From a virus: a DNA stretch of 28,155 bases. The notes beneath the pieces are model-generated. The model made no database searches and was not told the origin of the DNA. It was given only the letters and a program-made list of their open reading frames with translations. Positions 1-23,455 of the stretch are shown here, piece by piece. Each line of letters begins with the position of its first letter. The stretch's first letter is position 1. Location of the stretch: positions 1 through 28,155 of the IMG/VR virus record IMGVR_UViG_3300048121_001213. One strand, written 5' to 3'. The translations under genes were made by a program, and so were the position numbers.

Positions 1-113
1 GGAAGTGTTGATTGCTCCCAAGTCCATTTCCACATAGTAGCTTGACCTGCATCAGGTGCGTCTACTTGTATCTCAAGTACTTCAGGTGCAATACTAAGGT
101 TTACATCAGGAAC
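1..113 (-). repeat. Leader-module homology, copy in cassette E (cut by window edge)
   Basis: This is the start of the segment shared by all leaders (I-A-P-E-V-L-E-I-Q-V-D-A-P). At DNA level it is closest to the stretch around 15125-15235 of the cassette C leader, with only scattered differences. The similarity to the cassette B leader extends further upstream, to about base 240. Confidence 0.7.
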
Positions 114-419
114 ATTGTCCTGTGTAATCTGCCGTGTACCCAATTGGATACTGTTTCCACTTAGATATAAATCTCTCCAGCGGTTGCTAGCAGTTCCCAA
201 GTCACGTGTAATATTAGTGTCAGGTATTAAGTGATCGCCAATTTGTCCACTACTGTTGATGTCCAGAGTATCGTGATTTGGTAAACCTAGACCAGTGAGT
301 GTTACATTACTCTCACTGATGCTTTCCCAGGCACTGGCAGTTGAATTGTACTGCCACGTTCTGCCTACTGCACTGTATAAATCGCCGTCACTTGGACTGT
401 TTGGAAAGTTGATTGCCAT
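1..419 (-). CDS. Fibre cassette leader protein, N-terminal part (cassette E, partial at window edge)
   Basis: The frame opens with ATG at 419 and stays open to base 1, giving 139 codons with the C-terminus outside the window. The N-terminus reads MAINFPNSPSDGDLY, followed by G-R-T-W-Q-Y and A-W-E-S. It matches the start of the leader at 21187-23412 (MAVSFPSSPTNGDIH, G-R-R-W-I-Y, A-W-K-S). Both then have a D-L-G-x-x-x-N-R-[WF]-R-D-L-Y-L-S-G-N-S-I-Q-L-G-T-R segment. The last visible residues (I-A-P-E-V-L-E-I-Q-V-D-A-P, W-K-W-T-W-E-Q-S) are the shared leader module that precedes the cupredoxin-like domain in the paralogues. The start is fixed by the promoter/hairpin element immediately upstream. 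It is probably a virion tail or fibre component; its missing C-terminal type (S74, glycan-binding or other) cannot be predicted. Confidence 0.85.
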   Translation of the reverse strand, partial: MAINFPNSPSDGDLYSAVGRTWQYNSTASAWESISESNVTLTGLGLPNHDTLDINSSGQIGDHLIPDTNITRDLGTASNRWRDLYLSGNSIQLGTRQITQDNVPDVNLSIAPEVLEIQVDAPDAGQATMWKWTWEQSTL

Positions 420-445
420 GTGTAATAATCCTGTTGTTATTACAC
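417..445 (-). promoter_or_regulatory. Leader hairpin with SD in loop, ending at start codon (copy 1)
   Basis: On the minus strand the nine bases GTGTAATAA and TTATTACAC form a perfect 9-bp inverted repeat around the 8-base loop CAACAGGA. The loop holds the Shine-Dalgarno AGGA, and the ATG at 419-417 follows the stem with no gap. The same element precedes the ATGs at 7214, 15339 and 23412. The repeat is directly visible; a role in controlling translation is inference. Confidence 0.75.
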
Positions 446-446
446 T

Positions 447-454
447 TATTTATC
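447..454 (-). promoter_or_regulatory. T4-type late promoter box GATAAATA (copy 1)
   Basis: GATAAATA on the minus strand fits the T4-like late -10 box (TATAAATA in T4, NATAAATA in T4-like cyanophages). It lies 27 bases before the ATG at 419 and two bases past the stop codon of the upstream gene. It is identical in position and sequence to the boxes before the other three leader genes, which supports function. Confidence 0.75.
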
Positions 455-456
455 GA

Positions 457-789
457 TTATGCAAAGGGATCATCAACAACAATATTAGGATTAGTTGGCC
501 AATTATCAAATATTAAATCACCCTGTTCATTTAAATCAACAGTTGATAAATCTACATCTGTGATATCACGCAAGGCCTGACGGTAATCTAATTCAGCTTG
601 TGAAATTGTTCTATCACTAACTGTCCACCAATCAGTATCTTTTATCAATTGATCACGTCTTAATCTTAATAAGGTTAATTTTCTCATATTATCTAATTGT
701 GTTCGAGCAGATGTGATTTCCTCTTGTGTGGGTGAATCGTTGCCAGTTTGGCTTAACCAATTAGTTGCTATTTCATTACTTGTATACAT
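457..789 (-). CDS. Phage tail fibre assembly chaperone-like protein (cassette D)
   Basis: The product has 110 residues. The core from about residue 42 to 75 (L-R-R-D-Q-L-I-K-D-T-D-W-W, then S-D-R-T, then Y-R-Q-A-L-R-D-I-T) matches the phage tail assembly chaperone family (Pfam Phage_tail_APC type: R-D-x-L-L-x-x-T-D-W followed by Y-R-Q-A-L-R-D). Such small cytoplasmic proteins act next to fibre genes and are usually thought to help fibre folding or attachment without joining the virion. The gene is last in cassette D: its ATG directly abuts the TAA of the 810-residue fibre gene, and its own stop lies just before the next late promoter. A paralogue with the same core lies at 18755-19102. The C-terminal tail, acidic and Asn/Pro-rich, is unlike that paralogue and may set partner specificity. 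Confidence 0.75.
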   Translation of the reverse strand: MYTSNEIATNWLSQTGNDSPTQEEITSARTQLDNMRKLTLLRLRRDQLIKDTDWWTVSDRTISQAELDYRQALRDITDVDLSTVDLNEQGDLIFDNWPTNPNIVVDDPFA

Positions 790-3222
790 TTATTTTATCC
801 ATAAGTTTCCGTCAGTACCACCATAAGCATCATTTCTAAATCCACTGTTATTTCCTTGTTCTGGGTGTCTCTGATATGCAAAATAAGATGTACCTGTATG
901 GTGGTCACCAAACCCTCGAGTACCAGAATTTGGGGCTCGGTCACTAATTGATCCTTCAAAAGTTGTTGCAACTCGTGTTCTTTCATTCTGGTTTTGGGCA
1001 CTGCTTACTGTATCAACAGTAGCATTAGTATCTATAAAGTTGTTTAGTATTGTACTGCCACTAGAGGTAAATCCACCAGTTGTTTCCATCCAATATGCAG
1101 TACTACCAGTGTAAGGACTTGCAGTTCGATATGCATTCATAAATGCATCGCTCATTTTAGCAGTACTAGTAGCTTGATATTGTGGGCCATTATTATTGCT
1201 TACATTTACACTATTATTATTGTGATGTGCTTGATTACTTGACACTGTTACTCTAGCCATTAATACCCAACCGCCGCCATTTCTACTGTTGTCAACATAC
1301 ATACGTTGAGCAGAGTACCCGCTAATAGCAATATAATAATATCCATCTGGATATCCTTGATTAGCTAATTGTACTGCACTTGATGCAGGATTGGCAGCAG
1401 TACCTATAGAGGCTGTAAAACTTTTCCAACCAGATGCGTATTTGTAATATAAGTTTCCGTCATCATCGCTCACATAAGCAATAGTACCCGCAGTTGCTGA
1501 ACTATTTAATGTGGCCACTGTTTGAGTTTCAAGTGTAATACCATCATTATTAATTATTAGATTTGCAGCAGCAGAGTTTAAGTTATCTGTACTTCCGGTT
1601 GCGGTGCTTCCAGCATTTACACTAAACTCAATGGTGTTATTTCCACCACCATTATCAGTTGCTATTATAAGTCGATCATTACCTGCTTCATACCCAAAAT
1701 AAGCAACACCATAACCACTAGCATGAGCAATGAACAATGCATCTCCACCACTATTAGAACCTACGCCAATATATCGAGTACTTCCACCATCATCAAAAGT
1801 AGTAGCGGAATCACCAGCACAAATATTCCCACCGCTTACATGTAATTTTTCGTCTGGCGTATTTGTCCCAATACCAACGTTGCCCGCTGTGTTAATTACC
1901 ATTCTTACATTATTAGCATCAGCAGCAAATTCAAGGCCGCCTTGACCACCAAGTCTTAGTTTAGGACTTGAACCACTATCCATTCTAGTGGCATTAAATG
2001 TCACCGTTCTTGATGCATTTGTATAGTTCGGCGAACCAGTAGTACCATCAACAGCGACATTCAATCCTACTTCTTCATTATATAATCTAAATATTCCACC
2101 ATCGCTAGTTCCGTTATTAACACTTAATTTATACGAAGGATTAGAGTCACCAATACCAACATTGCCACCTAACGGATTTATAGCCAAATTGTAATAGGCG
2201 GTTGGATATGTAGTTATAGATTTATGCCGTGTTTGAATCCAAGAATTATATGGAGAATCGTCATTAACTCCCATATCAAGTGTAGTATGTCCACCTTTAA
2301 TAGAAAACGCCCCTACTCTGGAGGTAGCCCCTGTAGGGTCATCTCCAGCATACTCAATAACTAAATTTGCATCTGGCGTATTTGTCCCAATACCAACATT
2401 GCCATTGCTTAATCCGTGTAGCCATATGTTACCAGACTGATTACCAACAGCATCACCTTGAGATAATTGAAATGCACCGTTATCCATATAAAAACGACCA
2501 GTGTATCCGCTTGTTCCACCTGTTCCTCTGAAATACAAATGTGGAGTCCCGTTATCTCTTTCAAATGTAACTACTGGATTTCCACTCTGTATAACATGAA
2601 GTTTACCTTCTGGATTTACAGTACCAATTCCAACATTGCCGTTACCTTTGATAACTACATCGTAATTTGTATCAGTCTGATGATCTGCATTAAATGCAAT
2701 CATATTATCTGGAGCACTACCATCAGCACCAGCATCAAAGTAAATTGCACCAGTATTTCCTACACCGCCATTATCTGCAATTGCTCGCATACCAATAACT
2801 GCTGGCTGGCCAGTAGAATAATTATCTACTAAAAGTGTGTTGGTATTTGCACTAATTGTATGAGAATTTCTAACATGTAATGGAGCAGACGGTGCTGTGT
2901 TAATACCAACACCTGTTGAATTAATGTTGAGTGCAGCATTATTTGCACCATTGTATATGTTAACAACATCTCTACCAAGAGTTCCGTCACGTAACTTAAA
3001 GACATCTAAATTTTGATCGTTTTCAAAACGCCAGGTTTGATTACCGGCTGTCATTTGTAATCTTGCACGGTCAACGGTATTACCACGTGCATTGGTAATA
3101 CTAACATCTATATTTTGACTTGAATCATTATAAATTTCTAAATTACTTGAAGGCGTATGTGTTCCTATTCCTACATTACCATCTGTATGAATTAAATCTG
3201 CTATATTTCTTGCTACACTCAT
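790..3222 (-). CDS. Tail fibre / adhesin with GNVGIGT repeats and fibrinogen-like C-terminus
   Basis: The product has 810 residues. Six copies of the fibre repeat (for example GNVGIGTNTPDEKLHV, GNVGIGTVNPEGKLHV) are spread over about residues 15-470, separated by beta-rich spacers, as expected for a trimeric fibre shaft. From about residue 624 the sequence changes: Y-P-D-G-Y-Y-Y-I-A-I, then M-Y-V-D-N and G-G-G-W-V-L-M-A-R. This resembles the first subdomain of fibrinogen-related domains (Y-x-I, CDM, GGGW), but the usual cysteines are absent. The protein ends G-F-R-N-D-A-Y-G-G-T-D-G-N-L-W-I-K. It is probably a receptor-binding adhesin. Its ATG overlaps the TGA of the upstream leader gene (ATGA), with GCAGGA just upstream, so translation is likely coupled. 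The fibrinogen-like call is moderate; the fibre call is firm. Confidence 0.85.
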   Translation of the reverse strand: MSVARNIADLIHTDGNVGIGTHTPSSNLEIYNDSSQNIDVSITNARGNTVDRARLQMTAGNQTWRFENDQNLDVFKLRDGTLGRDVVNIYNGANNAALNINSTGVGINTAPSAPLHVRNSHTISANTNTLLVDNYSTGQPAVIGMRAIADNGGVGNTGAIYFDAGADGSAPDNMIAFNADHQTDTNYDVVIKGNGNVGIGTVNPEGKLHVIQSGNPVVTFERDNGTPHLYFRGTGGTSGYTGRFYMDNGAFQLSQGDAVGNQSGNIWLHGLSNGNVGIGTNTPDANLVIEYAGDDPTGATSRVGAFSIKGGHTTLDMGVNDDSPYNSWIQTRHKSITTYPTAYYNLAINPLGGNVGIGDSNPSYKLSVNNGTSDGGIFRLYNEEVGLNVAVDGTTGSPNYTNASRTVTFNATRMDSGSSPKLRLGGQGGLEFAADANNVRMVINTAGNVGIGTNTPDEKLHVSGGNICAGDSATTFDDGGSTRYIGVGSNSGGDALFIAHASGYGVAYFGYEAGNDRLIIATDNGGGNNTIEFSVNAGSTATGSTDNLNSAAANLIINNDGITLETQTVATLNSSATAGTIAYVSDDDGNLYYKYASGWKSFTASIGTAANPASSAVQLANQGYPDGYYYIAISGYSAQRMYVDNSRNGGGWVLMARVTVSSNQAHHNNNSVNVSNNNGPQYQATSTAKMSDAFMNAYRTASPYTGSTAYWMETTGGFTSSGSTILNNFIDTNATVDTVSSAQNQNERTRVATTFEGSISDRAPNSGTRGFGDHHTGTSYFAYQRHPEQGNNSGFRNDAYGGTDGNLWIK

Positions 3223-6200
3223 AATCCTGCCTCATCTAATCTTGCTTGTAAACTGTCTATCTTATCAGACATTTCTTGCATTGCTTTGACCATCATGGGA
3301 ATTAATTGACGCTCATAAATTGCAAGTGTATTTTCAATAGTTCCATCTGGTTCTAAATCTTCGCCATACTGTTTATCGTTTCTATAATGAGTAGTGCCCA
3401 TATCATAAGTTACTGTGGAGTCAACTGCTTGAACCTCTTGAGCAATAAATCCATAAATGTATTCTTCTTCAGCTGTATATTTCCAGTCAAAACTTACTGG
3501 ACGAAGTTGTTTAATTTTTTCCAATTGGTTGTCTAAATCAACAACATTGGTTTTTAGTCTTGCATCAGATCCACTGTAAATTTGTGACCCGCCTTCAGTA
3601 ACACCAATGTTACCATTTGGTGTATCAACACTAAATCTAATAGTATTGCCGCCTGTAGTGGCATCCCTAGGGGTGTTACTATCACCATAAACACGGAAGT
3701 GACCATGGCCTTGGTTAGTACTAATGTTTATACCATCATAATACCACATTTTGTGGTTATAATCAGTAGTGTCACGGAAAATAGTTTGTCCATCGTGGTG
3801 TACGAAACTTCTGTAACCACTACCCAAGTTACCGCTTCTATAGTGGAAACCAGCATCTGATGTACTTTCGCCCTTAACTGACTGCCCAGCAGTGATGTGT
3901 CCATCAAAATAATGCTGGCCTTGACTGTCATAAAACTCAGTTTTTGCTGTTGTTTTTACGATACTGTGTCTATAAGAACTTGTACTTAATCCCTGAGCGG
4001 GTGCTGCACCAGCAGTTGTTTTACTGCCATCCATGCGTGTCATCGTAAAGATTGAATCTCCGTCAGCCCAGCCACGACCATAAGATTCTGAATTTGCGTT
4101 ATTGTATCCGCCAAAATGATAAGCTGGTCTATAATCAGGCGCAGAACCACCGTCTATATTATTCCCGTAAAATAAAAATCCATCGTTTTTATTGTAACCA
4201 TAAATTCCCATTGCATTAGATTCACCCTGGATCTTTTCATTATGGTCTGTTCCAGTAACACTTCTAAAACTGACGAATCCACGGTTTACACCAATACCGT
4301 TGTCTCCTGCTTCGCTAGATGGAATATCTACGTATAGTTTTATAGAAGGTGCTTCATTTCCAATACCTACATTACCATTAGAGTCGATAGTGACACGTGG
4401 ATTATTATTAGTGTATAATTTAATACGGCTATTTTCTCGTTGTACTAGTTCAACATCTTGATTGTCATCTCTTACGTAAATATCGAAACCATCATTAGCA
4501 CCTGCACCACTTTGGTCGTTTGTTATTTTCAAACCAGTTGCTCCACCATCATGAATATGTAATCTTCGTTGTGGAGAAAATGTTCCGATACCTACATTTG
4601 CAGCATCCCCCGGAGCACCTAAAGTCAAAGCCCTACCGCTAACACTAGGTCCAATACTTGCGTATTTTGTTGCTGCTCCTACTTCATTAATAACAAATTG
4701 AATATCAGTATCAGTATTATTAGTTAAGTTAAGCATGGTAGATGTGCCACCACCACTATACGCATTTACCACGTTAACAACAATACCAGTATCTTGATCA
4801 CTCTTAATGTTTACTCTATGATCAGATGCTGTTGAAGTTCCTATATATAATCTTCCAGCAGTGTCTATTGAAAGATATTCTGTACCACTGGTATTCTGAA
4901 AACTGTATTCAGGTGCTTTAACATAAAGTACATTTCCAGTAGATTTGATTTCATCATTTGTTCCATCTTGTCTTAGTGTAAGTGTACTACCAATTGTAGC
5001 TGTTGCATCTACAATAACAGGGCCACTAAACGTACCGCCTGCACTTGCACTAACTGCATCACCAACTGTGAAGTTTTCATAAGCAATAATTTCAACTGTT
5101 TCGCCAGCGCCAACTCCACTTGTTAATACAATGGCAGTACCACTTGTATCAGTGTAGTCTGTTGTACGTACAAGTTTTACACCATTAAGAAATACATCTA
5201 CACTACCAGTTGTATATGTTGCTGTAAAACTAGTTTGGTTAGCGGTTGCCGTATAACTATATCTATTTGTAGTTGCTGGAAATGTTAAGTTCGTAATTGC
5301 ACTACCATCCCCACTTAATGTTGCGGCATTAACTGCACTACCAAATGTTACATCGCTAGAGATCTTAGTAGCAAAAGCACTGTCAAATCTTCCTTGTGTA
5401 TAATATAAGTTTGTACTGCCTTCACTCAGTGCATCTGTATTACTTGCCGTAATACGTGCATCTGCTCGGGCATCTGTGTAGTATAAATTAGTACCTTCAG
5501 CAACATTTGTGGTTGATTTTGTACCTAACCACGTGTCTGCTGTGCTTGTAAAGTCAGCTGTTGCTAATTTAGTAGCAATATTATTTGCTGTTGTGGTAGC
5601 GAAATTAGGGTCATCTCCTAGGGCAGCTGCTAATTCGTTCAATGTATCTAATGTAGCAGGTGCGCTATCAGTGATTGATGCAACTATGTTTGTTGCTGTA
5701 TCATATCCGTTGTTGCTTAAATAAGTGCCTACATCACTATCAGTGTAACCGGGTTGTCCGTCTAGTGTTAGCGTACCAGCCGCATCGTCATATGTGGCAG
5801 TAATATTATTACCACCTACCAATAATGCTGCTACCCGATCATCAACTCGTTCATTAGTAAAATATAAATTAGAACCTTCAGTTAGATCTGCTGTGGTTGC
5901 GGCGGCTATACGTGCATCTGCTCTAGCATCTGTAAAGAATAAATTTGTACTACCTTCAGTTAAGTCATCGCTATTCGCTGCCCCGGCTTGTTGCCAAGCA
6001 CTTCCATCCCAAATATAAAGGATGTCAGTATCAGTAGCAAACGCCTGGTCGCCTGGGTTGTTTCCGGTAAGTGGGAGATATGTACTATCATCGTAAACGT
6101 TAACTTTTGCAATTACCGCACTACCATCTTCCACAACCAGTTCAGCTGTACCAGCTACTTCACGTATCTTGTTCTCAAAACTAGGAGTATTTTCCACATA

Positions 6201-7214
6201 AGTTGCCAAGTCTTGTGGTACAAATTTACCACTACCTGCATCATAAACAATACACATCTGGTTAACTAAACTTGGAATAGGTCTTAATTCAACAGCCGTC
6301 TTGTGGCCTTCCTGCGTGTGTTGGAAATAGACTACATAATTGCCGTTGATATTTGTTTCAACTGCCAAATCTTTTACGGTAATCTCACCTCTCATTACTG
6401 AGTGGTTACCGCACTGGTAGTAGAGGGTATCTGGAGCATTTGCTGGTACTGTAAATGTTATAGTACCGCTGTCAGTTCTACTTCCAGTTACACCTGAAGT
6501 GTATTCACCAAAGTATGTACCAGCCGCAAAATTAGTTCCATTATCAGTTGTAAAGTAAAATGGGTGTCCAGTAGCATTTATGTTTACGGTATATGTGCCG
6601 CCACGGTAAAACGGACCTAGGTTGGGATTATCGCCTTTTGCACTGCCACTAAAAGTGTATCCGCCACTGCCACTATTAACTACAGTGTATGCAACACTTG
6701 GATTTGTTAGTGTTGGTGGTGTAATAGTACTGGGCACGTTTACCGTAATACGTTGAACGTCTGTTGCGTTACCGCCATTTATGTCTGGATGTGTGTCACT
6801 GATTGGGCCTGCACTAGTAGCCCAACTAATTAAGTTATCTGTACCTGCGCCATCAATCCACTTCAGATACAAACTGTGTGTTTGCGTCATACTGCCATGA
6901 ATATCATAAGCTGCGAAGTTGTTGACTACATATGTACCTTCTTTATATAAGGGTACGTTTAGTTCATTTGAATTAGTGATTGTTCTACGTGCATATGGCA
7001 GGGTGCTTTGTTCCCACGTCCATTTCCACATAGTAGCTTGTCCCATGTCAGGGGCATCTACTTGTATTTCAAGTACTTCTGGAGCAATTGCTAGGTTAAT
7101 ATTGACCAAGCTGTCAATATTTGTTGTGTCGATATTTAAATCGGTGATTGTGCCACTGGCATCTACTACCAAACTTTTGGCAAGTTGAACTAATTCGTAA
7201 CCTTTACTTGACAT
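3219..7214 (-). CDS. Cassette D leader: large tail fibre with cupredoxin-like domain and C-terminal S74 chaperone
   Basis: The product has 1331 residues. Residues 1-40 are an N-terminal cap (L-A-K-S-L-V-V-D-A-S-G-T-I-T-D-L) shared with the cassette C leader. Residues about 41-165 are a module shared by all leaders. Residues about 167-282 are cupredoxin-like, with His217, Cys268, His271 and Met274 as likely copper ligands. Residues about 415-605 hold [DE]-x-[TS]-E-G-[ST] repeats with Y-[FY]-T-x-x-R and the segment A-P-A-T-L-D-T-L-N-E-L-A-A-A-L-G. Later come G-N-V-G-I-G-[TN] repeats. The C-terminus is an intramolecular chaperone (Peptidase_S74) with the S-D-A-R-L-K motif: Ser1216 and Lys1221 match the Ser/Lys dyad spacing of endosialidase. 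It ends in a coiled coil. Cleavage before Ser1216 would release the chaperone after trimerisation. The start is set by the promoter/hairpin element directly upstream. Confidence 0.9.
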   Translation of the reverse strand: MSSKGYELVQLAKSLVVDASGTITDLNIDTTNIDSLVNINLAIAPEVLEIQVDAPDMGQATMWKWTWEQSTLPYARRTITNSNELNVPLYKEGTYVVNNFAAYDIHGSMTQTHSLYLKWIDGAGTDNLISWATSAGPISDTHPDINGGNATDVQRITVNVPSTITPPTLTNPSVAYTVVNSGSGGYTFSGSAKGDNPNLGPFYRGGTYTVNINATGHPFYFTTDNGTNFAAGTYFGEYTSGVTGSRTDSGTITFTVPANAPDTLYYQCGNHSVMRGEITVKDLAVETNINGNYVVYFQHTQEGHKTAVELRPIPSLVNQMCIVYDAGSGKFVPQDLATYVENTPSFENKIREVAGTAELVVEDGSAVIAKVNVYDDSTYLPLTGNNPGDQAFATDTDILYIWDGSAWQQAGAANSDDLTEGSTNLFFTDARADARIAAATTADLTEGSNLYFTNERVDDRVAALLVGGNNITATYDDAAGTLTLDGQPGYTDSDVGTYLSNNGYDTATNIVASITDSAPATLDTLNELAAALGDDPNFATTTANNIATKLATADFTSTADTWLGTKSTTNVAEGTNLYYTDARADARITASNTDALSEGSTNLYYTQGRFDSAFATKISSDVTFGSAVNAATLSGDGSAITNLTFPATTNRYSYTATANQTSFTATYTTGSVDVFLNGVKLVRTTDYTDTSGTAIVLTSGVGAGETVEIIAYENFTVGDAVSASAGGTFSGPVIVDATATIGSTLTLRQDGTNDEIKSTGNVLYVKAPEYSFQNTSGTEYLSIDTAGRLYIGTSTASDHRVNIKSDQDTGIVVNVVNAYSGGGTSTMLNLTNNTDTDIQFVINEVGAATKYASIGPSVSGRALTLGAPGDAANVGIGTFSPQRRLHIHDGGATGLKITNDQSGAGANDGFDIYVRDDNQDVELVQRENSRIKLYTNNNPRVTIDSNGNVGIGNEAPSIKLYVDIPSSEAGDNGIGVNRGFVSFRSVTGTDHNEKIQGESNAMGIYGYNKNDGFLFYGNNIDGGSAPDYRPAYHFGGYNNANSESYGRGWADGDSIFTMTRMDGSKTTAGAAPAQGLSTSSYRHSIVKTTAKTEFYDSQGQHYFDGHITAGQSVKGESTSDAGFHYRSGNLGSGYRSFVHHDGQTIFRDTTDYNHKMWYYDGINISTNQGHGHFRVYGDSNTPRDATTGGNTIRFSVDTPNGNIGVTEGGSQIYSGSDARLKTNVVDLDNQLEKIKQLRPVSFDWKYTAEEEYIYGFIAQEVQAVDSTVTYDMGTTHYRNDKQYGEDLEPDGTIENTLAIYERQLIPMMVKAMQEMSDKIDSLQARLDEAGL
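5568..7094 (-). repeat. Leader-module homology, copy in cassette D
   Basis: About 1.5 kb coding for the shared leader module, the cupredoxin-like domain and the D-L-T-E-G-S repeats, up to N-N-I-A-T-K. It is highly similar in protein, and largely in DNA, to 13771-15222 and 21391-22959. It differs mostly at synonymous sites and by one 25-codon insertion. Confidence 0.75.
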
Positions 7215-7241
7215 GTGTAATACATCCTGTTGTTATTACAC
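7212..7241 (-). promoter_or_regulatory. Leader hairpin with SD in loop, ending at start codon (copy 2, variant)
   Basis: This is the same element as at 417-445, but one extra base lies between the AGGA and the 3' arm. The arms GTGTAATA and TATTACAC still pair over 8 bp, now with an 11-base loop containing AGGA, and the ATG at 7214-7212 still follows the stem directly. Confidence 0.75.
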
Positions 7242-7242
7242 T

Positions 7243-7250
7243 TATTTATC
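7243..7250 (-). promoter_or_regulatory. T4-type late promoter box GATAAATA (copy 2)
   Basis: GATAAATA lies 28 bases before the ATG at 7214, with the same flanks as copies 1, 3 and 4. It sits in the 85-base gap between the cassette C end gene and the cassette D leader. I saw no convincing factor-independent terminator in the rest of that gap. Confidence 0.75.
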
Positions 7251-7299
7251 GATTATATAGAAGTAGTTATATTTTTTAACTTAGAGATTAAAGTTTATT

Positions 7300-8944: not shown

Positions 8945-11317
8945 TTATTCCTCTACTACAAAACCATTAACGGCTGAAATAGCAGTACCTACGGCTCTTG
9001 TAGTATTATTTATTCGCTGTAATCCACGGAATTCTGATCTTCCAGCACTGGTTCCGGCGTGTAAGGTTCTAGTACTACTATCATAACCAAATGCTGTTAC
9101 TACATTTGAGGTACCATAAAGTGTACACTTTGCGTTTTCCTGGAACAATACTTTTTCGTCTTCATAGATTTTCATAATTTGTTCTGCAGATGGTGCTGTA
9201 GCTGAAATGCGATGCAATGCTAATTTTGTATCAGCTGTAAATGAAGAAGGAAAAGTTGAACCGTTGTATGAATTAACCCCGTAACTAATATATGCGGATT
9301 GATCTGTTAATGTCCCGGCGTATTTAGATACTTCAATTCCATTTCTGTATACAGTTAAAACTCTGCCGCTATACACAAATGCTACATGTATCCATCCGCT
9401 ATTAGACACTGCATAAGTCTGATCCCATGCGCCGCTTGCAACTTTAGACCTAGTAGTAATACCAGTTGAATTAATACTAGCCAATAGAACTGTGTTATTG
9501 TACCCGCCGGTATTTTGATTTTCTATAGAAATCTTACCAACTGTGTCGCACCAGAAATGTGAAACCCAGGGCTGTGACCAATCAATTGAAAAAGAATCTA
9601 TTGGCTGTAATAGGTAATTGTTAAGAGTAAAGCCACTATAAGCAACCAATTCTGCGCCACCTGTTACAGGCGTCTTCTTTACAGTGCCAATTGTTTCTAA
9701 ACCATTTCCATTATACCCACCGTAAACACTTCGATCATCCTCTGCCAATTTTACAATTACATTATCTACATACACTGTGTTCGCTCCAATAGCGTATGGA
9801 ACAAGATAATGAGTGGTCTGTGTTGCAGTAAAAAACATATGTCGAGTTACACTACTAGTAGTTCCTTCATGCGGGATATAACCAACATCGTTTGCTGCGT
9901 TTGATCCTGTGCCTAGGTGAAAACTCCAAGAACCTTGAAAATCAAGCTGTACATAATATCGCTTACCTATTTCACATGTAATAGGATAGTAGCATGGTTG
10001 GTTACCGCCAGCTGATGTAATAGCAAGTCTGCCGGACGACCAAGAAATACTTGCGCCGCTTGAAGCCCATCCATCAATATTACTATCAAAAGTGCCGTTG
10101 CTGACAAGATTAGAATCTGTAGCATCGTTACTGTCAGTATCACTCAATGTTGCTAATTTAGAGTTGCCTATTTGCCATCCGGTATTATAGTCAGATGCAA
10201 TATATGCAACTTTGCCTTGTTCCGGACTATCAAAATCTGGGTTTAATATTGTTAAATCTCCAGCAGAACTTCTCATAGCTTGATTGTCATCATTCATAGA
10301 GATTGCTTCAACTACGCCGCCGCCATTAAAACAAGGGTATGGCTCATGTGCTCCGTTAGAATACCATTTCATAATTACTTTATCAGTAATATCTCCATCG
10401 TTTGTTGAAGTTGTTCTGTTAACCTCAGGAATTGGTATACAAAACACTGATCTAGGATTAGTACTATTGTCTTGTTCAAAAATAAGATTATGATTTTCAG
10501 TAAAATCAATCCAAGACACACCAGTATATGCTGATCCGGCACTTGCGGTTATTTTAACAATCGTATAATCGCTCTTTATAACGGCTACACCGCCGTTAGT
10601 GGCTACTGCAATTGTAGGGACTGGCAGTGATCCAGACACATGCATATTCGAATCTGGTGTAACTGTCATTGCAACATCATTTACATATTCATTAATGATA
10701 TTGAACCCTGTGACACTCATTTCTTTTTGTACACTTCTTGGGGCAGTTCTTCCCAATCTACTAGGACTGATATAACTGTAAGTATGTCTATGAACGTGAT
10801 TATGTATACGCAATGTATCTGATATGAAATCAAGTATACATATCCCATTGTTTGTTCTGCCAAAAACAATATGTCCGTTTAATGCTGATACGCAGGTATT
10901 ACTACTACCATCTCCAGAAATACCAAATCTGACTTCCATCCACATGGGTAGATTTGGATCATCAGCATCATATATAGTTAAATCTACTGTTTGGCCTTCT
11001 TGAACATTTGTATTATTTGCTTCTAAAACTAGAACAGCCACCGCAGGGAAATCCGGTCTATTACCACGTACTGATGTATTCAAACGCTCATTATACCAGC
11101 TTGTGTGTTGTGTGCGCTTACGCCATGCACCGCCGTCACTGTCTTTACTTGTATCGTAGATGATTACATCAACAGCAGTCTTGGGAATAACAGCATCAAT
11201 TGTGCTCAGGCTACTGCCTTTTGACAGCAAAAACTCTCGCTTGTCCATAAAAGCCGCAGTTCCCAAATCTGCATTACTTGGTACTTGATTTGGATTAGTT
11301 CCTATAAGTTTAGTCAT
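8945..11317 (-). CDS. Multidomain phage structural adhesin (propeller-like, CBM-like and LamG/ConA-like regions)
   Basis: The product has 790 residues. The N-terminus (P-S-N-A-D-L-G-T-A-A-F-M-D) resembles a linker common in marine phage structural proteins. Residues about 140-375 have short repeated strands (N-G-H-I-V-F-G-R-T-N-N-G-I, then N-G-G-V-A-V-I-K-S-D-Y) that could form a beta-propeller. Residues about 402-525 look like a carbohydrate-binding jelly roll, opening N-L-V-S-N-G-T-F-D-S-N-I-D-G-W. Residues about 555-715 look like a laminin-G/concanavalin fold (S-G-W-I-H-V-A-F-V-Y-S, then L-T-V-Y-R-N-G-I-E-V). The start overlaps the upstream stop as TAATG, with GGAG eight bases before. The domain folds are judged by eye and only moderately sure; the role as a surface glycan-binding virion protein is inferred. 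Confidence 0.75.
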   Translation of the reverse strand: MTKLIGTNPNQVPSNADLGTAAFMDKREFLLSKGSSLSTIDAVIPKTAVDVIIYDTSKDSDGGAWRKRTQHTSWYNERLNTSVRGNRPDFPAVAVLVLEANNTNVQEGQTVDLTIYDADDPNLPMWMEVRFGISGDGSSNTCVSALNGHIVFGRTNNGICILDFISDTLRIHNHVHRHTYSYISPSRLGRTAPRSVQKEMSVTGFNIINEYVNDVAMTVTPDSNMHVSGSLPVPTIAVATNGGVAVIKSDYTIVKITASAGSAYTGVSWIDFTENHNLIFEQDNSTNPRSVFCIPIPEVNRTTSTNDGDITDKVIMKWYSNGAHEPYPCFNGGGVVEAISMNDDNQAMRSSAGDLTILNPDFDSPEQGKVAYIASDYNTGWQIGNSKLATLSDTDSNDATDSNLVSNGTFDSNIDGWASSGASISWSSGRLAITSAGGNQPCYYPITCEIGKRYYVQLDFQGSWSFHLGTGSNAANDVGYIPHEGTTSSVTRHMFFTATQTTHYLVPYAIGANTVYVDNVIVKLAEDDRSVYGGYNGNGLETIGTVKKTPVTGGAELVAYSGFTLNNYLLQPIDSFSIDWSQPWVSHFWCDTVGKISIENQNTGGYNNTVLLASINSTGITTRSKVASGAWDQTYAVSNSGWIHVAFVYSGRVLTVYRNGIEVSKYAGTLTDQSAYISYGVNSYNGSTFPSSFTADTKLALHRISATAPSAEQIMKIYEDEKVLFQENAKCTLYGTSNVVTAFGYDSSTRTLHAGTSAGRSEFRGLQRINNTTRAVGTAISAVNGFVVEE
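9007..9014 (-). promoter_or_regulatory. Possible late promoter box AATAAATA inside a gene
   Basis: AATAAATA on the minus strand lies inside the 3' end of the 790-residue gene, about 67 bases before the ATG at 8940. It fits the NATAAATA pattern and could give the 363-residue adhesin its own late transcript. It also encodes part of an Asn/Ile stretch, so a chance match is quite possible. Confidence 0.3.
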
Positions 11318-14300
11318 TAGTTATTCTCCGTAAGTGCTATTAGTTCTGTAAGGGATAGCTGTGCTGGATAATATGAAAGTTTTCTAATATGTCCATTCCA
11401 TAATGTTGATGATCCAGCAAATCCTATTTCCACCATAGTTACCTTATCCATCTCAGGCATCGTTATACTAGACATTTGAGCATCGATTCCGTCTGCGGCG
11501 GCAATTTGAGAGTTGGGTTTTATAGATAATGCCATCTTATGTATTTCAGTGTCCTGCCAAAGTGGTAATACGCTATATAAAGGAAAATAATCATTATTGA
11601 ATCCAGGTGTAACGACTCTAAAAGTATAACCACTGCGATCCAATGCTACAGAACCACCGGTGGCGTTTCTTCTCAACAGATATCTATTAGAGCTTGTTCC
11701 GTCTGTGATACCCCACATACAAGGAGATGATCCTACGTTTGCATCACCTGTTATAGATGTACCTTCTCCGTATATAGTGGATTCTTTTGAATTATACCAA
11801 GAGATGTCATGTATACGAGCTGTATCTTGTTCTCTAGTATACGCAACACTTGACGCAACATCGGCTGAGCGAGTTGCAGGATTTCCGTTAGTGTATATGA
11901 AAGATGAAGCACTAGATCCTTGTTCTTGTTGCGCTCCAAAAACATAGATACCATTACCTTCAGCAATATTATCCGCATATATCCAGTGATATCCGGCAGT
12001 TGTGTTAGCCGATATTACAGTAACAGAACATCTATACCAACCATCTCCAACATTTTCAATATTTGCAATACAATTATTGCCCAGTGTGTTTACTGTTCCA
12101 TTTATAATATCAAATTCAACATTATCGTTTCCAGATTGTGCATCTACGTTCGATATCCACACATATTGAGCATTTCCATCAGATTTCAAATAAAAACTAT
12201 TTGTATAACTTTGACCTGTTGATATTGAACCAACATAAGGCTGACTTAAAGCCCCAACTCTGCCAGTCCCAGTTCCTGATGTTCTCGTAAAATATACTGC
12301 GGCAGTTGATCCGTCTGGCGCAGAGTATCCTAATAACAAAGTCGTGTCTTGTGATGCATAATCTTTAACCCATCTCCCAGAGTAATTAAATGCATTACTA
12401 AAGTCTTGTAGATTAGTAGCCGCACCCTCAAGAATCAATCCAGTCTCTACCCACTTACGACCATCATACTTGTAACCATAACGTGCGCCGTCAGCTGGTG
12501 CTGTTCTGAGAATACCATTCTCATCATGATACGTTGCCGCACTTGAACGTGAAGTAAAGCGTGTATCAGATGGAATATATGAGGTTGCAAAAGACCCTTG
12601 TTCAATTTGAGGAGCCCAAACAAGAATGCCGCTTGCCGCATCAGTATTATTATTATCATAAAACGCAAGGTTTGTCGATTGATTCCAACTAGCACCGTGA
12701 ACAGCAATCATTACGCATCTATACCAACCACCGCCAACATCTTCAATATGATGTGTGACACTAGCCATAGTTCCACCTACGTTAGCGGTAGTTGCTGTTC
12801 CAGTTGATAAGTCGAAGAATGCAGTTACATTGTTTGCACCATTTCCAAGTTCCATATGAAAATTATAATCGCTACCAACAGATTTTGCATAACAAGAAAC
12901 TGCGTATGTTGAATTGGCTGCAGGAGTAAACATGTTGAAGTCATGAATAACTCTAGTTCCGGAAGAATCTTTACGTGCTATAAAGACAGCAGACATTGTG
13001 CCATCTGGAGCAAGTGCATAATTCCTAATCTTTTCACATCTCGAAGTAGAAAAAGTTTCTAAATTAGTGCTATTAGGAACAATGTTAGTTCTCGACTCTT
13101 CAATCAACAAGCCTTTGCTTTCGCCAGTAACTGGGTCGTGGTCAAAGCGTGGTGTGTTTGTATTAGCGTAACGTAGAACACCTTTGCTATCGTAGTAAGT
13201 AGCAATCGAATCACGATAGAATGTAATACGAGGGTCTAGTTCTTTTGAGTTAGCAAAGTCTAGATTAAGCGTAGGTCGAACACTGTGACGAACTTGTTCA
13301 GTGTCTATAGCACCGTCATCTCTTACACCAAAGACTGGTGTGGTATTTTGATAAACTCTAATTCTGTTTGCTGTTGCGTGTGTTGCACCATAACCTAATC
13401 CAAACTCGCCAGAACCATCTGTACTGAGTCTGAGATTTTCACCACCTATACGAACACCTGTTGTAAATTTACCTTGACCTGAAACATTAATATCACCAGT
13501 AATATTTCCACCTGTTAATGGTAATGCATTATCTGCTAAGGTACCTTGTGCAGCAGTTGCATAATCACTGCTATCAAATGCTTTTACTTGTGCAAGATTT
13601 GTTACTTCGCTATCCATTAACGCACCTGCGGCAGTTACGTTAGTGGTGTCAGTTACGTCTGCTCCAACTTCAATGCCATCTAGTTTAGCGCCGTCTGTTG
13701 CAATATCTCTGCCAGCAATGGTTGATGTTGTGGTAATCGGCCCAGTCATTGCACCGCCACTTAGCGATAGTTTTGTTGCAATATTATTTGCTGTTGTGGT
13801 AGCGAAATTAGGGTCATCTCCCAGTGCGGCTGCTAATTCATTTAAGGTATCCAGTGTACTAGGTGCGCTATCTGTTATTGACGCCACAATATTTGTTGCT
13901 GTATCGTAGCCGTTATTTGTTAAGTATGTGCCTACATCACCATCAGTGTAACCTGGTTGCCCATCTAATGTTAATGTGCCTGCGGCATCATCATATGTAG
14001 CGGTGATATTATTTCCGCCCACTATTAATGCAGATACACGGTCATCTACACGTTCATTCGTAAAGAATAAGTTTGTACTACCTTCAGTTAAATCATCGCT
14101 GTTGGCGGCACCGGCTTGTTGCCAAGCCGATCCGTCCCAGATATATAAGATATCTGTGTCTGTTGCAAATGCCTGGTCACCAGGATTATTTCCTGTTAGT
14201 GGGAGATACGTACTGTCGTCATATACATTAACTTTTGCAATAACTGCTGAGCCATCTTCCACCACAAGTTCAGCAGTACCAGCCACTTCACGTATCTTGT

Positions 14301-15339
14301 TTTCAAAGCTGGGTGTGTTTTCCACATAGGTTGCCAAGTCTTGTGGTACAAATTTACCACTAGTGCTGTCATAAACAAGACACATCTGGTTAACGAGGCT
14401 TGGAATTGGACGAAGCTCTACTGGAGTTTTATGTCCTTCTTGTGTGTGTTGAAAGTACACCACATAGTTGCCGTTGATATTTGTTTCAACAGCTAAATCT
14501 TTTACAGTAATTTCACCACGCATTGCGCTGTGATTACCGCACTGATAATATAATGTGTCAGGCGCACCTGCAGGAACAGTAAATGTTATACTGCCTGTTT
14601 CATTACGTGATCCAGTTACACCAGTTGTGTATTCACCAAAGTATGTGCCAGCACTAAAATTTGTTCCGTTATCTGTTGTAAAATAAAATGGATGTCCAGT
14701 TGCCGTAATATTAATGGTGTAAGTACCACCACGATAAAATGGACCTAAGTTGGGATTGTCACCTTTGGCTGCTCCGCTAAATGTGTAACCGCCGCTGGCG
14801 TTGTTTACAACGGTGTATGCTACACTGGGATTGGTTAAACTGGGTGGTGTAACCGTACTGGGTACATTTACTGTAATACGCTGTACATCGGTTGCCGCAC
14901 CGCCATTTATATCTGGGTGTGTATCACTAATCGGACCCGCACTGGTTGCCCAACTAATTAAGTTATCTGTACCTGCTCCGTCCACCCACTTCAGATACAA
15001 GCTGTGCGTTTGTGTCATACTAGCATGTATGTCATATGCCGCAAAGTTATTGACCACATATGTACCCTCTTTATATAAGGGTACATTTAGTTCGTTGGAA
15101 TTAGTAATGGTGCGTCTAGCATAAGGGAGTGTTGATTGCTCCCAAGTCCACTTCCACACGGTAGCTTGACCTGCATCAGGGGCATCTACTTGTATCTCAA
15201 GTACTTCAGGTGCAATACTAAGATTGATATCCGGCAATTCTTCAATTGCAGTGGTATCAATTTGTAAATCTGTAATGGTGCCCGTGGCGTCTACAGTTAA
15301 ACTTTTGGCAAGTTGTGCTAATTCAAGGTTGCGGCTCAT
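11317..15339 (-). CDS. Cassette C leader: large fibre with cupredoxin-like, tandem CBM-like and ConA-like domains
   Basis: The product has 1340 residues. The N-terminal cap (L-A-K-S-L-T-V-D-A-T-G-T-I-T-D-L) and following module match the cassette D leader. The cupredoxin-like domain spans about 166-281, with His216, Cys267, His270 and Met273. [DE]-x-[TS]-E-G repeats and the D-T-L-N-E-L-A-A-A-L-G segment follow. From about residue 690 it differs: L-D-F-A-N, D-P-R-I-T-F-Y-R-D-S and R-F-D-H-D-P-V-T-G-E, a module known from phage tail proteins. Two jelly-roll domains of carbohydrate-binding type follow (about 752-925 and 965-1160). Each contains G-W-Y-R-C and closes with E-Q-G-S-x-A-[TS]-S-[YF]-I. 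The C-terminus is concanavalin-like (W-N-G-H-I-R-K-L-S-Y-Y-P-A-Q-L-S). No S74 chaperone is present. The start is fixed by the promoter/hairpin element. Confidence 0.88.
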   Translation of the reverse strand: MSRNLELAQLAKSLTVDATGTITDLQIDTTAIEELPDINLSIAPEVLEIQVDAPDAGQATVWKWTWEQSTLPYARRTITNSNELNVPLYKEGTYVVNNFAAYDIHASMTQTHSLYLKWVDGAGTDNLISWATSAGPISDTHPDINGGAATDVQRITVNVPSTVTPPSLTNPSVAYTVVNNASGGYTFSGAAKGDNPNLGPFYRGGTYTINITATGHPFYFTTDNGTNFSAGTYFGEYTTGVTGSRNETGSITFTVPAGAPDTLYYQCGNHSAMRGEITVKDLAVETNINGNYVVYFQHTQEGHKTPVELRPIPSLVNQMCLVYDSTSGKFVPQDLATYVENTPSFENKIREVAGTAELVVEDGSAVIAKVNVYDDSTYLPLTGNNPGDQAFATDTDILYIWDGSAWQQAGAANSDDLTEGSTNLFFTNERVDDRVSALIVGGNNITATYDDAAGTLTLDGQPGYTDGDVGTYLTNNGYDTATNIVASITDSAPSTLDTLNELAAALGDDPNFATTTANNIATKLSLSGGAMTGPITTTSTIAGRDIATDGAKLDGIEVGADVTDTTNVTAAGALMDSEVTNLAQVKAFDSSDYATAAQGTLADNALPLTGGNITGDINVSGQGKFTTGVRIGGENLRLSTDGSGEFGLGYGATHATANRIRVYQNTTPVFGVRDDGAIDTEQVRHSVRPTLNLDFANSKELDPRITFYRDSIATYYDSKGVLRYANTNTPRFDHDPVTGESKGLLIEESRTNIVPNSTNLETFSTSRCEKIRNYALAPDGTMSAVFIARKDSSGTRVIHDFNMFTPAANSTYAVSCYAKSVGSDYNFHMELGNGANNVTAFFDLSTGTATTANVGGTMASVTHHIEDVGGGWYRCVMIAVHGASWNQSTNLAFYDNNNTDAASGILVWAPQIEQGSFATSYIPSDTRFTSRSSAATYHDENGILRTAPADGARYGYKYDGRKWVETGLILEGAATNLQDFSNAFNYSGRWVKDYASQDTTLLLGYSAPDGSTAAVYFTRTSGTGTGRVGALSQPYVGSISTGQSYTNSFYLKSDGNAQYVWISNVDAQSGNDNVEFDIINGTVNTLGNNCIANIENVGDGWYRCSVTVISANTTAGYHWIYADNIAEGNGIYVFGAQQEQGSSASSFIYTNGNPATRSADVASSVAYTREQDTARIHDISWYNSKESTIYGEGTSITGDANVGSSPCMWGITDGTSSNRYLLRRNATGGSVALDRSGYTFRVVTPGFNNDYFPLYSVLPLWQDTEIHKMALSIKPNSQIAAADGIDAQMSSITMPEMDKVTMVEIGFAGSSTLWNGHIRKLSYYPAQLSLTELIALTENN
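13771..15222 (-). repeat. Leader-module homology, copy in cassette C
   Basis: About 1.45 kb paralogous to 5568-7094 and 21391-22959. Downstream of this block the proteins diverge completely into different C-terminal domain sets. Confidence 0.75.
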
Positions 15340-15365
15340 GTGTAATAATCCTGTTGTTATTACAC
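15337..15365 (-). promoter_or_regulatory. Leader hairpin with SD in loop, ending at start codon (copy 3)
   Basis: Identical to the copy at 417-445: a 9-bp perfect inverted repeat, an 8-base loop containing AGGA, and the ATG at 15339-15337 directly after the 3' arm. Confidence 0.75.
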
Positions 15366-15366
15366 T

Positions 15367-15374
15367 TATTTATC
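15367..15374 (-). promoter_or_regulatory. T4-type late promoter box GATAAATA (copy 3)
   Basis: GATAAATA lies 27 bases before the ATG at 15339, in the 55-base gap after the C1q-headed fibre gene of cassette B. Flanks are the same as in copies 1, 2 and 4. Confidence 0.75.
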
Positions 15375-15394
15375 GATTATATTATTTTGTTTAC

Positions 15395-16822
15395 TTATGT
15401 GTTTAACCATCCACCAAATGTACTGATCTGAATAGTGGTACTACCAATAAGTGTTGGTTGAGGAGTATTATTAACATGACTCCATGGCTCTGCATAATCA
15501 CCAGCATTCATATAATATGTTCCTAAAGCAAGACTATTATTATACTGGCCGGACCCTCCAGCATATTCGTAATCTCGAAATCTTTCAACTCCATTAATAT
15601 AAATTTTTGCCTCGACATTACCAGTTCCAGCATTACCGAAGTTCATTCTATGCCAAAAGAAATAATTACCTGCAACTGGTGCAGTAAATCTATTGTTTGT
15701 ATTGTTATAGTGCCCGCCAATATCAGAAAATTCATGAGAATGATTAATTTTTTGGGCAAAGTTAACTAAAGTATAATTTGATCCTACACCCGCACAAAAT
15801 GAAGGCTGATAAGGCATCGTGACACGGCCATCATAATCAATACGCATACGTTCAGTTGTACTATTATTGGGAGATCCATTATTATTTTTTGTTGCAAAGT
15901 GTAAGGAACCACCCCAGCCAGATTCAAAGTCGGCACCAATTTCAGCCAGTCTGGCTGATTGGCCATTTGTTTGTGTTACTTGCATTGCAATGTTGGTTGC
16001 AAGACCAGGACCAACAGCGTTCTTTTTATGCACCATTAAATTATTTGCAGCGTTGTCTGAAACTACTTCTAATTTATAACCTTCAGTGTTTAAATCACCG
16101 ATAATGACGTTGCCTGAAGCATTAACTATCATTCGGTCAGCTGTGCCGCCTGTTCTAAATGTAATTGAGTCGCCAAAAGGTGCAGCGTAATTTTCCCCCC
16201 AAACATCTAAACTGGCACGATTTGCCCCTGATCCGTTTAATCTAAGCCAACCGTCTGCGTGACCATTCAAATATACTCCGTTACCAGTAGCGTAGCTAGA
16301 TAGTGTTGAGTCAGTTGCATAAACAGTTGATGTGGCTGGAGTTATAGTTAATCCAGTGGTAATTCTCGCTTCACCATTAACATCTAATTTCTTTCCAGGA
16401 TTAGTTGTACCGATGCCAACATTACCATTGGTATATTTTACAGTTAACACATCGCCATTTGCATTATCGCCTAGGCGAAGATCGGCGCCAAATCCATAAA
16501 CTCGTACAGTATTACCGGCACCGGGACCAAAAGATGGGTGTCCCGCTACATAAAACATATTATCAGAATGCCAGCCAATTGCACCAACATCAGCACCGCT
16601 TTCACGTTCAAAAGAGATATGATTGTAATCAGCAGGCTCACCGGTTCCTACATGAATATTACCGTATACCTGTAATTTTTCTTGTGGAGTTGTAGTGCCA
16701 ATACCCACACGGTCGTTGGGTGCGTCTACAAAAAATGTGTTGGTGTCAATGATAACATCGCCATCAGCATTTGTTGCCAATACTCCAACAATTCCATTAT
16801 CACCATCTAATACTAATGCCAT
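15395..16822 (-). CDS. Tail fibre with C1q-like C-terminal head (cassette B)
   Basis: The product has 475 residues. Fibre repeats include V-G-I-G-T-T-T-P-Q-E-K-L-Q-V and V-G-I-G-T-T-N-P-G-K-K-L-D-V, plus a degenerate V-I-I-G-D-L-N-T. The final 140 residues or so look like a C1q/TNF-type jelly roll. They open M-P-Y-Q-P-S-F, contain N-N-R-F-T-A-P-V-A-G-N-Y-F-F-W and K-I-Y-I-N-G, and end I-S-T-F-G-G-W-L-N-T. C1q domains are trimeric and could serve as both trimerisation and receptor-binding head. The tail differs from the G-[HY]-L-I-G ending of the three cassette A fibres. The gene starts 24 bases after the previous stop with AAGGT at about 10 bases. It is the last gene of cassette B. Confidence 0.85.
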   Translation of the reverse strand: MALVLDGDNGIVGVLATNADGDVIIDTNTFFVDAPNDRVGIGTTTPQEKLQVYGNIHVGTGEPADYNHISFERESGADVGAIGWHSDNMFYVAGHPSFGPGAGNTVRVYGFGADLRLGDNANGDVLTVKYTNGNVGIGTTNPGKKLDVNGEARITTGLTITPATSTVYATDSTLSSYATGNGVYLNGHADGWLRLNGSGANRASLDVWGENYAAPFGDSITFRTGGTADRMIVNASGNVIIGDLNTEGYKLEVVSDNAANNLMVHKKNAVGPGLATNIAMQVTQTNGQSARLAEIGADFESGWGGSLHFATKNNNGSPNNSTTERMRIDYDGRVTMPYQPSFCAGVGSNYTLVNFAQKINHSHEFSDIGGHYNNTNNRFTAPVAGNYFFWHRMNFGNAGTGNVEAKIYINGVERFRDYEYAGGSGQYNNSLALGTYYMNAGDYAEPWSHVNNTPQPTLIGSTTIQISTFGGWLNT

Positions 16823-19917: not shown

Positions 19918-21187
19918 TCAGTTTTTCCTCCAGTTCTTGAATTCTTGTTTCCATCTGTTGTATTCTTTCTACTGCTTCTTGTAGAGCCGCAGTTAATAAT
20001 GGAGTAATACGACCATAGTCCATTGTTTGCATCTCATCTGCATCTTTTTCACCAGTTACAGAATATTCGAGTCCAGCATCTTGAACTTCATGTGCAATAA
20101 AGCCATCAACATAGTTGTCTGGATCAACATTCCAACTATGTCTAACTGGACGTAATCTTTGTAATCTATCAAATGCGTCAGTTATTAATTCTACGTTTTG
20201 TTTTAATCTATAATCTGATGTTGTGTTATATGTAGTGCTAGTTGTACTTCTAACAATACTACCAACTATGCCTTCACCACTAGCAGTTGTATGAAAACGC
20301 ACAGTATTTGCATTAGAACCGTTTAGTTCTAATTGCCAATCACTATTGTTTGTAAAATATCCACGAGACCCAAACACACTACCTACTAGATAACAATTAT
20401 TAAATCTAGTATTATTATCTCCAAGATTAATGTAGTTTCCTTTTAAACTTAAAGTACTTGTATCAAATGGATAAATTGAACTAGAACCGAATGCAATTCC
20501 AATATTGTTATTTTGTGTACTTCCAAAATATGCACTATAGTTATCATCTATACCAATGGCAACATGATTTACTCCATCTTTCCTAAGTCCAATTACTGAT
20601 CCCCAGGACCCACGTCTTACAAACGTTGCTACTTCGCCTTCTCTAGCTGCTAATACATTACCATCAAGTTTTAAAACAATACCACTAGTATCAGCAGGCG
20701 TACTGTCAAGAATATCTTCAGATGTTGTACCAATTAAAGTATTACCACTACCATTAATAAGAAATCTATTTGATGCAGCACTTTGATCCCTTATAGTAAA
20801 TCCATCAGCATCAGATAGTAAATCTATACGACGGGAGGCATTTTCAATAGCTACTCGTCCTTGTGTGCTGTCATATACATGTAATGGAACCGCTGGACTT
20901 GATGTCCCAATACCAACATTACCACCACTAGAATTTAATACTATGTCTTGATCAGCATTAATTCTTAAATCTCTTCCACCATTTATAGTTGTAATAAAAT
21001 GACTTCTTGCAGTGTCAGTAAGCTGTATCTGTGCATTACTTTTTTCAATTAACAAGTTATTTGTAAATGTACCACTGTTGTCTGTTAATACAACTTTGCT
21101 TAAATCAATAGTAGTGCTTCCAGCAACATCTGGTGCCACTAGGTCTACATATCCGCTTACATCGCCTTTGATTCTTAAATCTGCCAT
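19910..21187 (-). CDS. Tail fibre with C-terminal S74 intramolecular chaperone (cassette B)
   Basis: The product has 425 residues from ATG at 21187, which overlaps the leader's stop as TAATG. A GTG 15 bases further upstream gives a longer frame but is less likely. The N-terminus (M-A-D-L-R-I-K-G-D-V-S-G-Y-V-D-L, then P-D-V-A-G-S-T-T-I) aligns with that of the fibre at the right window edge. One clear fibre repeat (N-V-G-I-G-T-S-S-P-A-V-P-L-H-V) and a degenerate one follow. The last 102 residues are a Peptidase_S74 chaperone: S-D-Y-R-L-K with Ser324 and Lys329, then L-R-P-V-R-H-S-W, G-F-I-A-H-E-V-Q, and a heptad helix ending E-L-E-E-K-L-N-G. Self-cleavage before Ser324 would leave a mature fibre of about 323 residues. 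Confidence 0.88.
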   Translation of the reverse strand: MADLRIKGDVSGYVDLVAPDVAGSTTIDLSKVVLTDNSGTFTNNLLIEKSNAQIQLTDTARSHFITTINGGRDLRINADQDIVLNSSGGNVGIGTSSPAVPLHVYDSTQGRVAIENASRRIDLLSDADGFTIRDQSAASNRFLINGSGNTLIGTTSEDILDSTPADTSGIVLKLDGNVLAAREGEVATFVRRGSWGSVIGLRKDGVNHVAIGIDDNYSAYFGSTQNNNIGIAFGSSSIYPFDTSTLSLKGNYINLGDNNTRFNNCYLVGSVFGSRGYFTNNSDWQLELNGSNANTVRFHTTASGEGIVGSIVRSTTSTTYNTTSDYRLKQNVELITDAFDRLQRLRPVRHSWNVDPDNYVDGFIAHEVQDAGLEYSVTGEKDADEMQTMDYGRITPLLTAALQEAVERIQQMETRIQELEEKLNG

Positions 21188-23412: not shown

Positions 23413-23438
23413 GTGTAATAATCCTGTTGTTATTACAC
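23410..23438 (-). promoter_or_regulatory. Leader hairpin with SD in loop, ending at start codon (copy 4)
   Basis: Identical to copies 1 and 3: a 9-bp perfect inverted repeat, an 8-base loop with AGGA, and the ATG at 23412-23410 directly after the stem. Confidence 0.75.
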
Positions 23439-23439
23439 T

Positions 23440-23447
23440 TATTTATC
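23440..23447 (-). promoter_or_regulatory. T4-type late promoter box GATAAATA (copy 4)
   Basis: GATAAATA lies 27 bases before the ATG at 23412 and eight bases past the stop of the last cassette A fibre. Sequence upstream of the AATC flank differs from the other copies, which marks the edge of the conserved block. Confidence 0.75.
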
Positions 23448-23455
23448 GATTTGTG

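Follow-up and report, generated by a model that had tools for sequence, protein, structure and literature searches.

A 42-base element, probably a late-gated translational lock, stands at the start of four tail-fibre genes in an uncultured marine T4-like phage

The 28,155-nt stretch of DNA analysed here, referred to as the window, comes from an uncultured marine T4-like phage in which four tail-fibre genes each open with a 42-base switch. Each element is probably a cis-acting, late-gated translational lock of the T4 gene e type, attached to each mobile fibre cassette. The element lies on the minus strand and reads AATC-GATAAATA-A-GTGTAATAA-CAACAGGA-TTATTACAC-ATG. It is sequentially composed of a GATAAATA box, a 9-bp inverted repeat with AGGA in the loop, and an ATG flush with the stem. 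The sequence-only reading had described four near-identical blocks, and all four are present. The copies at 417-458, 15337-15378, and 23410-23451 are identical, and copy 2, at 7212-7254, contains one inserted base (GGATGTATTACAC) that leaves an 8-bp stem. The parts are listed below, with the boxes read directly from the sequence.

447..454, minus strand: T4-type late promoter box GATAAATA of copy 1; predicted +1 at 441 (T4 rule; A signal six bases past the box)
420..445, minus strand: hairpin of copy 1, left arm 437-445 and right arm 420-428
429-436, minus strand: loop CAACAGGA of copy 1 with the SD sequence AGGA; the ATG at 417-419 is flush with the stem
7243..7250, minus strand: late box GATAAATA of copy 2; predicted +1 at 7237
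7215..7241, minus strand: hairpin of copy 2 with one inserted base, 8-bp stem 7234-7241/7215-7222; ATG at 7212-7214
15367..15374, minus strand: late box GATAAATA of copy 3; predicted +1 at 15361
15340..15365, minus strand: hairpin of copy 3, arms 15357-15365 and 15340-15348; ATG at 15337-15339
23440..23447, minus strand: late box GATAAATA of copy 4; predicted +1 at 23434
23413..23438, minus strand: hairpin of copy 4, arms 23430-23438 and 23413-23421; ATG at 23410-23412

The element is specific to the leader genes that follow it. A 38-base search of the window with up to three mismatches returns only the three identical copies, where shuffled sequences give an expectation of 0. A covariance model of the element, built from 22 relatives, recovers four sites in the window with E values of about 1e-8 to 2e-7 and none besides. 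As the sequence-only reading stated, no other gene in the window has the element. Most of the related leader genes on other marine phage contigs carry it. The GATAAATA box alone occurs five times in the window against 2.3 expected, which is near chance, so the significance belongs to the joint element. The element has no match at E ≤ 1 among the curated covariance models of Rfam, and a tRNA search found none. A search of 50,697 isolated-phage records gave no genuine DNA match, and the weak Staphylococcus phage hits look like chance. GTDB genomes contain no match to the element.

The leader genes share a domain with 74-79% DNA identity in most comparisons between window copies; copies 1 and 3 are 93% identical, over 99 nt only. 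Among the four window copies, the 100 nt upstream of the element are at background identity, and the first 100 nt of leader coding sequence are mostly so, with 61% between copies 1 and 4. The element is therefore the best-conserved stretch. The claim that the downstream domains have diverged holds for the extreme N terminus and the C terminus, which diverge fast, but not for the domain after the N terminus, which is shared. The genes at the four loci are as follows.

3..419, minus strand: leader gene 1, a fibre adaptor that runs off the window (ORF list; shared domain)
3219..7214, minus strand: leader gene 2, 1331 aa (ORF list; alignment)
11317..15339, minus strand: leader gene 3, 1340 aa, matching phrog_677, baseplate wedge tail fibre connector (5.7e-20), and tail protein families
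21187..23412, minus strand: leader gene 4, 741 aa, matching phrog_677 (6.9e-17)
457..789, minus strand: gene upstream of copy 1, tail fibre assembly-like, 110 aa; its stop codon is 2 nt before the late box

The match to phrog_677, a T4-like baseplate wedge/fibre connector, covers the N-terminal part of the leader. In leader 3 (11317-15339, minus strand), residues ~165-290 contain a GHPF...YYQCGNHSxMRG segment, also found in leaders 2 and 4, that resembles the copper site of plastocyanin/azurin. The segment has a Pfam Copper-bind E value of 0.0088, below the family cut-off, and no sequence match in the PDB; it belongs to the part of the leaders that matches cyanophage fibre connectors. The fibre genes at 15395-16822 and 23456-24943 (both minus strand), just upstream of copies 3 and 4, end in a C1q-like domain (Pfam PF00386).

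A T4-type late box GATAAATA stands immediately upstream of the gene at all four sites. In T4, late promoters consist of an 8-bp TATA box spanning about −13 to −6, at a distance of one helical turn from +1 (PMC2988020), and the late box of cyanophages is NATAAATA (PMC2984593). Among 83 distinct late genes of the marine contigs, counted without the leaders and the VAD genes described below, 66 have A at the sixth position past GATAAATA and none has C. By the T4 rule and this A signal, we infer that transcription starts at the fifth left-arm base. A gp55-type late sigma factor (phrog_12791, E 8e-82) is encoded on the closest long contig (G001, 59 kb), which also has genes for gp46 and for proteins of the gp23 (major head) and gp21 (protease) types. 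An early promoter was considered and rejected: the box is of the late type, and sigma70-like matches in the window, among them a TATAAT shortly before copies 2 and 3, are at chance level. A terminator was likewise rejected, as there is no U tract, the stem runs directly into the ATG, and the element is absent among terminator-like sites.

With the predicted +1 inside the left arm, the hairpin would be absent from late messages and form in read-through messages alone. As in T4 gene e, its presence should then depend on the promoter itself, a point missing from the sequence-only reading. In the proposed mechanism, a gp55-type sigma factor would read GATAAATA and transcription would begin about six bases downstream, within the left arm. 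GTGT, the arm half that contributes the G-C pairs, would be missing from the late RNA, which would keep only AAUAA of that arm, stay open, and be translated from AGGA and the ATG. RNA reading through from the upstream gene would contain both arms and form a 9-bp hairpin flush with the ATG, hiding the spacer and the start codon. With the late RNA open and the read-through RNA locked, each leader would be made from its own late promoter only.

The layout of the loci suggests that read-through RNA would include the hairpin. Every box is preceded by a same-strand gene whose end lies 2-50 nt away, and no terminator-like site was found in the intervening gaps. At copy 1, the upstream stop codon is so close to the box that a read-through RNA must include the whole hairpin. 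The full RNA has a predicted folding energy of about −8 kcal/mol, compared with 0 to −0.7 for RNA from +1. The predicted cost of opening the SD-to-AUG region is 8-9 kcal/mol in read-through RNA versus 2-4 in late RNA at 37 °C, and 11-12 versus 4-7 at 20 °C. The predicted helix covers the start region of the read-through RNA, with the spacer paired, the SD in the loop, and the ATG flush. Because AGGA is unpaired in the loop, unlike in T4 gene e, repression would have to come from the hidden spacer and start codon.

This late-gated hairpin design is already known from the T4 lysozyme gene, and here it is seen to recur in marine phages. In T4, an inhibitory helix represses the read-through transcripts of e, soc, 49, and I-TevI, by about 100-fold for gene e, and its 5′ strand is missing from their late transcripts (PMC3014915, PMC2988022). 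As in the window, the 5′ arm at e, soc, and 49 adjoins or is overlapped by the late box, and the 3′ arm reaches the start codon; as is predicted for the window, the 5′ arm is absent from late transcripts and present in upstream ones (PMC3014915). The T4 cases are single genes with the SD in or beside the stem, whereas the window genes are tail-fibre leaders with the SD in the loop and one element repeated at four cassettes. Late promoters likewise preclude structure in the late RNA of homing endonucleases (I-TevI, I-TevII, I-TevIII, segB; Aeh1 mobE) (PMC2988022). Those hairpins protect introns or limit early-made nuclease, but the window loci contain no endonuclease.

The geometry alone retrieves the T4 cases. 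A blind scan of T4, HTVC008M, and ten viral contigs (147 sites) used a late box, an SD, a start codon, and a stem between box+2..+16 and start−6..+3. The top six include T4 I-TevI, e, 49, and soc, and the window sites rank just behind. Stems of at least 9 occur at 4 of 27 late sites in T4 against 0.18 expected, and shuffling gives a stem of at least 8 at about 1% of late sites (1.4 of 116). Non-leader marine late genes are weakly enriched as a group (four with a stem of at least 8 versus 1.3 expected), so the case for generality comes from the VAD family and isolated examples and not from a genome-wide trend. HTVC008M yielded no convincing lock, and 24 late-box sites in the cyanophages Syn9, Bellamy, and P-SSM2 yielded none, with a best stem score of 6.

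The element recurs among related leaders. A DNA pattern that fixed the box, the left arm, and AGGA, with no constraint on the right arm, matched 19 additional viral stretches, every one preceding a leader gene. Their right end is TTATTACAC, TTATTACGC, CGATTACAC, or similar in all but a few. Protein searches added leaders irrespective of promoter, and a late box is present in 40 of 58 distinct leader upstream regions. Leaders at least 75% identical in the domain contribute 24 distinct late-box sites, 17 of which have a stem score of at least 7. Below 72% identity, none of the 16 leaders with a box has a stem of at least 7 when the nearest box is used; L052 has a 14-pair stem with a box farther upstream. 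Distant homologues, about 60% identical in the domain, keep a TATAAATA box and have no hairpin. The hairpin is thus a trait of one phage lineage, plus scattered cases, and not of the leader protein family as such. Loss of pairing with promoter and SD retained, the pattern expected if the palindrome were incidental, occurs in these distant homologues only; phages close to the window do not show it.

Pairing is retained through sequence change. In the leader alignment, the named structure is paired in 90.6% of cells, compared with 23-43% when one arm is slid. Double changes occur at three pairs, a result matched by 6 of 500 shuffles. Scores for further pair types and for overall covariation are no better than shuffles in this alignment, because the left arm hardly varies in the close clade. 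Leader arms pair better with their own partners than with swapped ones in 2000 of 2000 trials, a result inflated by relatedness. Individual variants keep the pairing in several ways: ACGC forms a U-G pair, AATAG a G-U pair, and L029 has a shortened right arm with pairing into the AUG. A G-C pair is replaced by A-U between L043b (ATATGTGT/ACACATAT) and L326 (ATATGTATA/TATACATAT). Ahead of a leader-like gene, L056 has the arms ACATATAAC/GTTATATGT. L011a, L037, and L043a are weaker cases. The earlier proposal of selection on RNA structure is supported by these G-U pairs, register shifts, and double changes.

An independent gene family displays the same architecture. The scan flagged a large gene with a GTG start and the N terminus VADxxxIISRIQxRRGLKQDLPQPLRPGE, a virion structural gene by weak match. 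Its homologues were fetched by protein alone; a single-protein search returned only itself, and an alignment-based search worked. Stems of at least 6 are present in 23 of 30 distinct late-box leaders of the family. The arm pairs include TACTGTTAAG/CTTAACAGTG, TACTGTTATGT/ACATAACAGTG, TACTGTTATAT/ATATAACAGTG, TACTACTATT/GATAGTAGTA, and TACAATTAAC/GTTAGTTGTG, and several of the family's pairs are compensatory. The arms score a sum of 205.5 with their own partners, compared with a mean of 158.8 and a maximum of 181 after swapping; none of 2000 trials reaches the own sum. As in the window, the stem extends from the end of the GATAAATA box to the start codon, the predicted start position lies inside the left arm, and the loop contains an SD (GGAG in this family). 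The VAD locks differ in gene, in arm sequence, and in having the start codon inside the stem. The SHQDDANLK clade (L267, L271-L273, L281, L284) has kept the late box and lost the stem.

Two single genes were also observed. An Rz-like spanin lipoprotein gene (L079:18657, G009:38657; weak PHROG match, 1.8e-4) has a perfect 9-bp late lock, GTGTTATCC/GGATAACAC, with a flush ATG, and would be a lysis gene guarded like T4 lysozyme. At L128:17207 (minus strand), TATAAATA and an 8-bp stem, AATAGTTT/AAACTATT, precede a gene for a 95-aa protein of phrog_18771, a family of unknown function, with a hydrophobic N terminus that is holin-like by eye.

The element could instead be a homology patch for recombination of fibre cassettes, with a hairpin of little regulatory role. 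In four locus pairs, the element and leader are 96-100% identical and the upstream 120 nt are at the background of shuffled sequences, so the promoter, lock, and leader move as a unit, which fits module exchange. The break at the element in these pairs, and an element identity above that of the coding domain, are what a homology patch would give. A similar role was proposed for PeSL units, the nearest described analogue. As cited in PMC4503421, PeSL cassettes of T4-type phages (Arbiol 2010, Comeau 2014) contain early promoters and terminator stem-loops. As in the window, the junctions between exchanged modules carry a promoter together with a stem-loop. The window element differs from that description in its late promoter and in an RBS hairpin without a U tract. 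A homology patch leaves the complementarity and the flush position of the start codon unexplained, compensatory arms are also found in a gene family that is no fibre array, and copies inside other contigs differ from one another. We consider this explanation unlikely.

Quite improbable is a translational operator bound in trans by a protein, in the style of gp32, gp43, or RegA, that coordinates the four leaders. A near-identical hairpin is present at all four starts and T4 has such operators (PMC3014915). However, the loop varies freely among relatives (CAAC, CAAT, CGAT, GCAA), and related genes, including leaders, have arms of unrelated sequence in which pairing alone is kept. In addition, the late RNA, the one in need of regulation, should be without the hairpin. 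The suggestion in the sequence-only reading of an operator for a phage or host protein is therefore not supported.

The hairpin might also be incidental, a chance complementarity between the conserved initial region of the promoter and the RBS of a recently copied cassette. A gene starting with MFLNEF (L053, L054, L057, L059, L062, L063, and others) is preceded by GATAAATAAGTGTAATAAC, which equals the box and left arm of the leaders, and has no matching right arm. The left arm sequence AGTGTAA is shared with another late gene. As AGTGTAATAAC before the MFLNEF gene has a left arm but no right one, the promoter accounts for some of the left-arm conservation, and late promoters of this group may be extended to include AGTGTAAT. 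The lack of a hairpin in distant homologues and a possibly recent origin of the window copies would also fit an incidental hairpin. This explanation is nonetheless very unlikely, given the rarity of stems of at least 8 in shuffled late sites, the four experimentally known T4 cases in the same class, and the survival of pairing through changes in two gene families. Equally hard to sustain is a palindromic operator in the DNA that overlaps the late promoter and binds a transcription factor: a perfect inverted repeat adjoins the promoter and I-TevI, which overlaps its own promoter and autorepresses, is a precedent (PMC2988022), but the changes keep RNA pairing and not DNA symmetry (U-G in the ACGC arms, stem into the start codon), and the stem stays at the start codon when arm sequence differs between related genes.

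A late-gated lock at each leader would extend a textbook T4 gene-control trick to abundant uncultured marine phages and to a new gene class, the fibre leaders, which contribute to host range. It also provides a rule that can be searched genome-wide: a late box, a start site inside an inverted repeat, and a flush start codon. With its compensatory arms, the marine structural family allows the idea to be tested independently of the window phage. If every leader cassette has its own late promoter and lock, a cassette could be inserted anywhere in a late-gene array. The element might then, more speculatively, act as a portable insulator that restricts each cassette to expression from its own promoter, the presumed benefit of the lock, and aids the swapping and stacking of modules. 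Marine T4-like phages might, in the same tentative reading, use such locks as a general tool, for fibres, a structural gene, and a spanin. The finding suggests how duplicated or exchanged fibre cassettes remain independently expressed.
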